Assembly (NCBI GenBank): GCA_024639455.1
Contig: JAHEIH010000005.1
Coordinates: forward strand, 62,001-126,000
Source of the DNA: Cellvibrionales bacterium
GTDB lineage: Bacteria; Pseudomonadota; Gammaproteobacteria; Pseudomonadales; JAHEIH01
Reading direction: 5' to 3'
Length of the DNA: 64,000 bases
In this document: positions 59,106-61,379 of the stretch, piece by piece
Numbering within the stretch: position 1 is the first letter of the stretch
Layout of the letters: every line of letters starts with the position of its first letter
Position numbers and translations under genes: made by a program
The notes under the pieces: model-generated
Told to the model about the DNA's origin: nothing
What the model saw: the letters and a program-made list of their open reading frames with translations, nothing else
Database searches by the model: none

Positions 59106-60215
59106 ATGAGCAAGGCATACGCTGTTCTATCTATTAACGACGATCTACCCATTCGCACCGACCGCCCCGTCCACAGCGGCAAAGTACGCTCGGTATACTG
59201 GCTGACCAAAGAAGATAGCGCCCGTCTCATTACTGAACGCGGCTACGATGTCGACGCCAACGCCGAGCTGGCCATCATGGTGATCAGCGACCGCCTATCC
59301 GCATTTGAATGCCTATGGCACTTCGAAGGCGACGTGCGCGGTATCCCCGGCAAAGGCGCCGCACTCAACGCAGTGTCAAACCACTGGTTCAAACTGTTCA
59401 AAGAAAAAGGCCTGGCCGATAGCCACATTGTAGACGTACCCCACCCACTGGTGTGGATCGTACAGAAAGCCCGCCCCATTATGATTGAAGCGATTTGCCG
59501 CCAGTACATCACCGGCTCGATGTGGCGCAGCTACGCCAAGGGCGAACGCGAGTTTTGTGGTATCGCCATGCCAGAAGGCCTAGGCAAAGACCAGAAATTG
59601 CCCGAACTGCTGATCACACCATCCACCAAGGGTATTTTGAAAGGCCTGCCCGGCGTACCCGAGCAAGACGACGTCAACATTACTCGCAAGAACATCAGCG
59701 ATAATTTCACCGCGTTTAACTTCAACCGCGAGGAAGACATCGCCCAGTACGAAAAACTACTCGCCGAAGGCTTCAACGTCATTAGCGACGCGCTGGCCGA
59801 GATCGACCAGATTTTCGTCGACACCAAATTCGAGTTTGGCTACGTGACCGATAAGAGCGGCCAACAGAAGTTGATCTACATGGACGAAGTGGGCACCCCT
59901 GACTCATCACGTATTTGGGACGGCCCCGAGTACCGCGCAGGTAAGATTGTGGAAAACTCCAAAGAAGGCTTCCGCCAGTTGTTGCTCAGCCACTTCCCCG
60001 ACCCCGACATTCTGCTCAACAAAGACCGCATGGATGAGCGCTACGCCCTCGCCTGCGACAACGCCCTTCCCGCTGAAGTGATGAACCAAGTGTCCGATAC
60101 CTACGTGGGCTTGGCAGAAAAGATCATCGGCGAAAAGCTGCCCCGGTCGGAAAACCCCAAAGCAGAGATTATTGATGTGCTGGATCGCGAGCTTGGATTG
60201 ATAGACAAGTCTTAG
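59106..60215 (+). CDS. purC: phosphoribosylaminoimidazole-succinocarboxamide synthase, long form
   Basis: Makes SAICAR in purine synthesis. 369 residues, the long form known from Vibrio and Shewanella relatives rather than the 237-residue E. coli type. [12 protein letters not shown] (ATP-binding start), [25 protein letters not shown] and [15 protein letters not shown] are SAICAR-synthase motifs. In Pseudomonas a short purC sits beside bamC; here the long gene is elsewhere. Confidence 0.93.
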
Positions 60216-60258
60216 GCCAAATACTTGCCAAACTATCCCCCCTTAATGGTAGACTCTA

Positions 60259-60287
60259 AGCGTCGTTAAATTGACAACAACGACGCT
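60259..60287. repeat. inverted repeat upstream of the cold-shock-domain gene
   Basis: AGCGTCGTT, 11-base loop, AACGACGCT: a perfect 9-base stem between purC and the cold-shock gene, 36 bases before the latter's ATG. No T-run follows on the plus strand (AACACGCTT), so it is a poor terminator; it could be a 5' leader structure or operator. Confidence 0.5.
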
Positions 60288-60323
60288 AACACGCTTAAAA
60301 CTATAACAATTCGTGAGACATCT

Positions 60324-60710
60324 ATGCGACCACTACTACAGGCAATTATTGCTGCGGTCACTGCAGCAGCCATTACACAATTCTTCTACCACATCGACAA
60401 TCCATTCCTGCAGGGTGCCGGTATTTTCATTTGTATCGTGGCATTCAAATACCTCGCCGACTTGATTCCCGAACAGTTCAGCCTGCCGTCAAGCAACAGC
60501 GAGATTGGCCAGGTCAAATGGTTCAATGTTAGCAAGGGTTTTGGTTTTATTACCCGCAAAAACGGCGAAGATATTTTCGTTCACTACCGCTGTGTGCGCG
60601 CCAATGGCCGCGGTCGTCGCGTGTTGGAAGACGGCCAAACCGTGCGCTTCGATATTGGAATGGGTGACAAGGGGCCACAGGCGGAAAACGTCCGCCCGGT
60701 GAAAGGCTAA
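60324..60710 (+). CDS. membrane-anchored cold-shock-domain protein
   Basis: 128 residues. Two hydrophobic N-terminal segments (residues about 4-22 and 28-47) lead into a cold-shock domain: GQVKWFNVSKGFGFITRKN (RNP1) and EDIFVHYRCV (RNP2), ending GPQAENVRPV. The nucleic-acid-binding aromatic residues are intact. Known cold-shock proteins are about 70 residues and soluble, so this one should hold RNA or single-stranded DNA at the inner membrane. Function unknown. It ends 2 bases before the convergent slyX stop. Confidence 0.85.
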   Translation: MRPLLQAIIAAVTAAAITQFFYHIDNPFLQGAGIFICIVAFKYLADLIPEQFSLPSSNSEIGQVKWFNVSKGFGFITRKNGEDIFVHYRCVRANGRGRRVLEDGQTVRFDIGMGDKGPQAENVRPVKG

Positions 60711-60712
60711 GA

Positions 60713-60931
60713 TTAATAATGCGGTGGCGGCTCATTGGCCGCTGGCGAATCGCCGTCGCCATCAGCCATGTTGCGCATCGTACGCACTAAGTATTGCATC
60801 TGCATTTGCAGCACATCCATTTGCTGATTCAAACTGGCAACCTGTTCGTTCAAGCCGTCGATAATGTCGTCTTGGTAGGCAAGGCGCACTTGAAGTTCGA
60901 CCACTTCTTCACGTAGATCTGAATCGCTCAC
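60713..60931 (-). CDS. slyX: SlyX family protein
   Basis: 72-residue coiled-coil protein of unknown role. LQVRLAYQDDIIDGLNEQVA forms heptads and the protein ends EPPPHY, the family's conserved tail. The GTG start at 60931 has a clear AAGGAGA ribosome site. It is divergent from yciH. Confidence 0.9.
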   Translation of the reverse strand: MSDSDLREEVVELQVRLAYQDDIIDGLNEQVASLNQQMDVLQMQMQYLVRTMRNMADGDGDSPAANEPPPHY

Positions 60932-61025: not shown

Positions 61026-61379
61026 ATGGCTAAAAATTCTCGCCTCGTATATTCCACCGACAGCGGACGCATGTGCCCCGACTGCGGCGAACCAGCCCAC
61101 GTTGGCCCCTGTGCCAAAATCTCGACAGTGCCCTCGGGTGACGGTATTGTACGCATCAAACGCGAGACCAAAGGCCGCAAAGGCGCGGGCGTAAGCTTAG
61201 TGGAGGGGGTTCAACTGGCAGAAAAAGAATTATCCACCCTCGCCAAACGCCTCAAGCAGGTCTGCGGTTCGGGCGGCGCCTTGAAAAACGGTGTGATTGA
61301 GATCCAGGGGGATCACAGGGAAAAACTTAAAGCCGAGCTCGAAAAGCAGGGCTTTAAGGTCAAACTGGCTGGCGGCTAA
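61026..61379 (+). CDS. yciH: SUI1-family translation factor YciH
   Basis: 117-residue homologue of eukaryotic eIF1. A short N-terminus with CPDCGEPAHVGPC (three Cys and a His, possible zinc knuckle) precedes the SUI1 domain (LAKRLKQVCGSGGALKNGVI, IQGDHREKLKAELEKQGF). The ATG at 61026 has AAAGAGA upstream; a longer frame from 60972 is not used. Its stop overlaps that of the convergent fleR by 3 bases. Confidence 0.9.
   Translation: MAKNSRLVYSTDSGRMCPDCGEPAHVGPCAKISTVPSGDGIVRIKRETKGRKGAGVSLVEGVQLAEKELSTLAKRLKQVCGSGGALKNGVIEIQGDHREKLKAELEKQGFKVKLAGG

Follow-up and report, generated by a model that had tools for sequence, protein, structure and literature searches.

A predicted membrane-anchored branch of the CspA family in a Cellvibrionales bacterium, Pseudomonas and their relatives

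A cold-shock-domain gene of a Cellvibrionales bacterium is, judged from its sequence, a genuine member of a conserved and apparently unnamed branch of the CspA family, the proteins of which are predicted to be anchored in the membrane. The gene lies within a 64,000-nucleotide stretch of contig JAHEIH010000005.1 (assembly GCA_024639455.1), hereafter the window, and its features and those of its surroundings are listed in Table 1. Taken as a whole, the gene is probably an ortholog of the branch that includes PA0961 of Pseudomonas aeruginosa, encoding a hairpin-anchored protein with a cytoplasmic RNA-binding domain that would act as a tethered RNA chaperone.

Table 1. Features of the cold-shock gene and its surroundings (coordinates of the window)
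Feature	Position	Strand	Basis
SAICAR synthetase gene (purC), upstream neighbour	59106..60215	+	Pfam SAICAR_synt, E 1.8e-37
Promoter-like sequence TTGCCA-N19-(TGG)TAGACT	60225..60255	+	By eye, weak
Perfect 9-base inverted repeat, 11-base spacer, not shared by the relatives examined	60259..60287	no strand	Repeat scan and controls
Membrane-anchored (predicted) cold-shock-domain protein, 128 aa	60324..60710	+	ATG-start ORF, Pfam CSD, AlphaFold model
Predicted transmembrane helix 1, residues 4-22	60333..60389	+	Kyte-Doolittle 1.68; AlphaFold helix 2-22; hydrophobic segments in relatives
Predicted transmembrane helix 2, residues 31-49	60414..60470	+	Kyte-Doolittle 1.69; AlphaFold helix 27-47
Cold-shock domain, residues 62-125	60507..60698	+	Pfam PF00313, E 1.2e-22; Foldseek
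RNP1-like motif	60534-60551	+	By eye in translation
RNP2-like motif	60573-60587	+	By eye in translation
Convergent gene of the SlyX family	60713..60931	-	Pfam SlyX, E 2.4e-20
SUI1/YciH translation-factor gene, just beyond slyX	61026-61379		Pfam SUI1

A sequence-only reading had described two N-terminal hydrophobic segments joined to a complete cold-shock domain with both RNP motifs, and this architecture was confirmed by the Kyte-Doolittle profile, the Pfam CSD match and the AlphaFold model. The region it delimited begins at 60259, the first base of an inverted repeat, with the gene itself beginning at 60324. The two segments are only modestly hydrophobic as 19-residue means, and the match of the domain to PF00313 reached 80 bits against a cut-off of 27. 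Both motifs are visible in the translation, KGFGFI (residues 71-76) being taken here as RNP1-like and IFVHY (84-88) as RNP2-like. With an alignment of 13 anchored proteins as input, AlphaFold modelled the two helices followed by a five-strand barrel at residues 59-125 (mean pLDDT 87.4, pTM 0.58), with Foldseek returning as the top folds the cold-shock domains of CspA (first), CspC, YBX2 and CspE. In an alignment of 13 anchored proteins, columns G62, V64-N68, K71-G72, G74-F75 and F85-H87 were invariant. The GC content by codon position (N-terminal part 0.53/0.38/0.55, domain 0.61/0.41/0.61) is compatible with both parts of the protein being coding. No Pfam family matched the N-terminal helices of the window protein. 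In one relative (L007, 1207-1824) a sub-threshold match to DUF4345 was found in the N-terminal part (E 4.4e-5), and given this DUF4345-like N-terminus the anchor may there have been swapped for another membrane module.

It is very unlikely that the gene encodes an ordinary soluble CspA-type protein whose hydrophobic N-terminus is either untranslated or not inserted into the membrane. Such a protein would be in keeping with the modest hydrophobicity of the helices, with the weakness of the only ribosome-binding candidate 5′ of the ATG (GTGAGA) and with the presence of two further in-frame start codons upstream of the domain, GTG at codon 39 and TTG at codon 47. Neither of these codons is preceded by a clear ribosome-binding sequence and the relatives retain the helices, so that a downstream start removing the helices, the danger to which the sequence-only reading had pointed, is possible on paper and unlikely. 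The helices were moreover modelled with block pLDDT values of 73-87 over residues 1-60, which argues against a soluble product, as do the tree and the charge pattern described below.

Of the 37 genomes of the order that were searched (the source genome, one of the same genus and 35 more), 25 have the layout of a cold-shock domain behind N-terminal hydrophobic segments. In this survey the best hit of 30 genomes and 20 further chosen stretches were read, while G003, G009, G015, G032 and G033 were not read and were scored as without the anchor in the count of 25; two of the 25 (L029 and L121) have only one segment over the threshold. The same layout is present in named genomes of Stutzerimonas, Pseudomonas, Halomonas, Marinobacter and Reinekea, as seen in the best 80 of at least 591 confirmed loci found with patterns drawn from anchored proteins. 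The Pseudomonas loci with the layout encode proteins of 195-208 residues with four hydrophobic segments. From a class sample of 229 genomes the 30 best loci were read, and of the 27 from outside the order four carried the anchor (L139, L141, L144 and L167, with one segment over the threshold in L139), so the layout is not strictly confined to the order. The rarity implied by the sequence-only reading was therefore mistaken, the layout being widespread in the order, and a fusion unique to the source genome was rejected by the finds across the order and the named genomes. A search of plasmids gave 1540 matching records, one of which (NZ_CP131792.1) was examined for the anchor. In L018/L117 (G035:C17) the anchored gene directly follows a soluble 70-residue cold-shock gene on the same strand, the two forming a tandem, and a second, soluble cold-shock gene also lies near the anchored one in L023 and L139.

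Hydrophobic segments were called by a threshold and not by a trained predictor, with the longest ORF start taken, and as a result L016 was wrongly called anchored; it was placed with the soluble set in the tree and in the slyX count and kept among the 45 proteins of the charge averages. L147 and L155 were read as soluble, each having a single hydrophobic stretch in an N-terminal part that is over-long. Rows with identical domains were removed before the charge, tree and slyX counts were made.

In a tree of 131 non-identical domains, based on 65 columns and with a bootstrap that had not settled, the 44 anchored domains formed one branch (97/97) apart from the 87 without an anchor. The window gene (L004) falls inside the anchored branch, pairing with L006 from the same genus (91/82). 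All 44 domains of the branch have N-terminal hydrophobic segments; these segments define the label "anchored", and the point of the tree is that the two labels separate, which is difficult to reconcile with a soluble product of the window gene. The domains also differ in composition. With the miscalled L016 included among the anchored set (n = 45, against n = 86 for the rest), the mean net charge of the domain was +1.2 in anchored proteins and -1.1 in the rest, the mean number of arginines was 6.2 against 2.2, and a basic stretch of the FR(S/A)IR type after FVH was present in 41/45 against 13/86. The basic, arginine-rich character of the anchored domains fits a predicted role in nucleic-acid binding, although the contrast in charge and arginine content is partly plain descent.

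The distribution of charge around the helices was counted in 30 two-segment proteins, taking up to 15 residues before helix 1 and 15 after helix 2. Ahead of helix 1 the averages were 1.5 for lysine plus arginine and 0.37 for aspartate plus glutamate; the loop gave 0.37 and 1.57, and the residues following helix 2 gave 1.37 and 1.3. The pattern suggests a hairpin whose two ends are both cytoplasmic, with the cold-shock domain facing the cytoplasm, although the nearly balanced charges following helix 2 speak against this. The flanks carry more positive charges than the loop, which is a further point against a soluble protein. The membrane anchoring put forward in the sequence-only reading is as such supported by computation, through the AlphaFold model, the segments of the 44 related proteins and the charge pattern, with N-terminal transmembrane segments in an N-in/C-in arrangement being predicted.

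In the proposed working of the protein, the inner membrane would be spanned by a hairpin of the two N-terminal helices, in an N-in, C-in arrangement that keeps the single arginine-rich cold-shock domain on the cytoplasmic side. This domain would be expected to bind single-stranded RNA and possibly single-stranded DNA. The protein would then be a membrane-tethered RNA chaperone for transcripts undergoing translation or turnover at the membrane. As a proposal, RNA tethering at the membrane is plausible. A wider proposal, which is tentative, is that Pseudomonas and its relatives possess a single-origin family of inner-membrane RNA chaperones acting on mRNAs where membrane proteins are made or decay; if real, this family has been hidden under the name "cold-shock protein". 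No title pointing to a membrane-anchored bacterial cold-shock protein was found in the open-access literature. The location of mRNA in the bacterial cell, and the proteins that bring mRNAs to the membrane, are an open question, and a conserved, membrane-fixed, cytoplasmic RNA-binding domain in Pseudomonas would make the question of mRNA location directly testable.

The anchor could alternatively serve mainly for meeting a membrane partner or for keeping a reserve that is released by cleavage, in which case RNA binding at the membrane would not be the main job of the protein. The linkers between helix 2 and the domain differ greatly in length and make-up (alignment A1), and the number of hydrophobic segments varies, being mostly two or four, which suggests that the hydrophobic part may have no function beyond anchoring. 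Set against these observations is the gene neighbourhood, in which the sole recurrent neighbour tested for and found was slyX, on the opposite strand, and this alternative is considered unlikely.

The tethered-chaperone reading draws P. aeruginosa into the comparison through NZ_CP131792.1 (locus L115), in which aspS, Dps and a 204-residue "cold-shock protein" with four hydrophobic segments are followed by a convergent SlyX gene. This matches the order PA0963 aspS, PA0962, PA0961 cold-shock and PA0960 given in an earlier report (PMC2771283), identifying the cold-shock gene of L115 as PA0961. Like the window gene, PA0961 has a C-terminal cold-shock domain of the same branch, N-terminal hydrophobic segments and a convergent slyX; it differs in size and segment number (the window protein having 128 residues and two segments) and in having dps and aspS as neighbours where the window gene has purC. 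Locus L115 (NZ_CP131792.1 628652-636858) comes from a record of 847 kb that is labelled as a conjugative plasmid and also bears aspS and proline--tRNA ligase genes that look chromosomal.

In published studies, PA0961 is one of five CspA family proteins, with the mutant of each gene growing normally in LB (PMC9239060), and a PA0961 insertion mutant had wild-type virulence in worms (PMC3406104); the lack of a phenotype in these studies counts against the tethered-chaperone reading. Little or no expression of PA0961 was seen under the conditions used, at 25 and 37°C (PMC13086522), a result that argues against its acting in cold shock in P. aeruginosa. PA0961 was also present in a four-gene clone from a cryptic-resistance screen (PMC2771283), and since the clone holds four genes nothing can be assigned to PA0961 from that screen. 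In Grad-seq, PA0961 was reported to sediment mid-gradient, unlike CspA, which was interpreted by the authors as a sign of stable RNA or protein complexes, with PA1159 sedimenting likewise and both proteins called strong candidates for stable complexes (PMC8545117). Mid-gradient behaviour is therefore not specific to PA0961 and is compatible with protein complexes too, as would be expected were the anchor mainly for meeting a membrane partner. An anchor could nevertheless help explain the difference in sedimentation between PA0961 and soluble CspA. The passages on PA0961 in these five papers (PMC9239060, PMC8545117, PMC13086522, PMC2771283 and PMC3406104) make no mention of membrane anchoring of PA0961.

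Among known proteins, CspA, CspC and CspE of E. coli and Salmonella share the cold-shock fold and RNP-like motifs with the window protein, but their solved chains are of about 70 residues and have no anchor, against 128 residues and a predicted anchor. All of the named NCBIfam Csp models (CspA, C, D, E, G, F and H) scored the window protein below their own cut-offs, the best being the CspE model with 80.5 against a cut-off of 120. Proteins combining a cold-shock domain with DUF1294 likewise join a cold-shock-type segment to hydrophobic helices; in these the cold-shock part comes first and the helices are PF06961, the reverse of the order in the window protein. The sequence-only reading had described the DUF1294 layout in this way, and it was seen as such by eye in the two loci translated of the six, DUF1294 having been found in 6/37 genomes searched. 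PF06961 was absent from both the window protein and the source genome, and with the reversed order a relation of the window protein to DUF1294 proteins was rejected.

The gene slyX was found 6-271 bases away on the opposite strand in 27/44 anchored loci (16 convergent, 11 divergent) and was not found in the examined flank of the other 17, these flanks extending over 3 kb for named genomes (4 kb for L115) and 1.5 kb for the others, with less at contig ends. It was present in the flanks of only 2/87 other loci, at 875 and 1087 bases, and one of these, L023, has the anchored gene in between. As a neighbour of the anchored family slyX is frequent, not universal. Nothing joining slyX, cold shock and Pseudomonas was found in the open-access literature. 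On the upstream side, purC was found near a homolog in this genus only, among the loci examined by tblastn. In L006 purC is separated from the cold-shock gene by a minus-strand gene (approximately 510-1165) that by eye resembles ElbB, and a similar ORF start is visible where the SUI1/YciH gene sits in the window.

The perfect 9-base inverted repeat noted in the sequence-only reading is real, with arms AGCGTCGTT/AACGACGCT at 60259-60267 and 60279-60287 and its end 36 bases 5′ of the ATG. It is not exceptional, as the window contains 16 perfect 9-base inverted repeats, this one included, whose arms are 3-20 bases apart; this amounts to roughly one every 4 kb, where 20 Markov-1 control sequences gave 4.3 repeats on average. 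The repeat was absent within 130 bases upstream of 17/17 homologs, including L006 from the same genus, four of the 17 having other 8-base repeats that are different in sequence. The repeat hairpin has a predicted stability of -11.2 kcal/mol at 37°C and is modelled as folded throughout 5-75°C, leaving the start codon uncovered, the predicted openness of the start region being flat (0.55-0.60 from 5 to 45°C). The leader had no match in Rfam and folded only slightly better than its shuffles (z-score -1.73). The suggestion that the leader is temperature-responsive consequently failed, and an RNA thermometer or cold-shock leader was rejected, the start region being predicted neither to open nor to become covered with temperature; cold induction or a thermosensing leader is not supported. 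In L006, the leader of which lacks the repeat, predicted openness is 0.44 at 5°C and rises to 0.63 at 45°C. This opening of the L006 leader carries no weight, since most leaders with a weak fold melt. A role of the repeat as purC terminator was also rejected, there being no T-run after it and the terminator scan being empty at this place.

The repeat might still be a functional operator, or a 5′-terminal hairpin stabilising the mRNA, that controls the cold-shock gene. The stability of the hairpin would suit such a role, which is nonetheless judged distinctly improbable in view of the absence of the repeat from the homologs, the 16 similar repeats in the window, the lack of an Rfam match and the slight fold z-score. 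A genome search allowing up to three mismatches gave five sites against two for the control, with no clear regulon, so that an operator with a regulon found no support. As far as the evidence goes, the repeat is incidental to the gene. A further point in favour of a regulatory role comes from the promoter-like sequence upstream, a weak candidate read by eye which, if used, would start the transcript near the repeat and place the latter at or just past the transcription start. A consensus promoter scan did not return 60225-60255; it found another plus-strand site, 60198-60225, with no excess over shuffles. A similar sequence, TTGTCA-N19-(TGT)TAGACT, precedes the L006 ortholog despite the different upstream gene there, the pattern common to the window and L006 being, by eye, TTGYCA-N19-TGnTAGACT.
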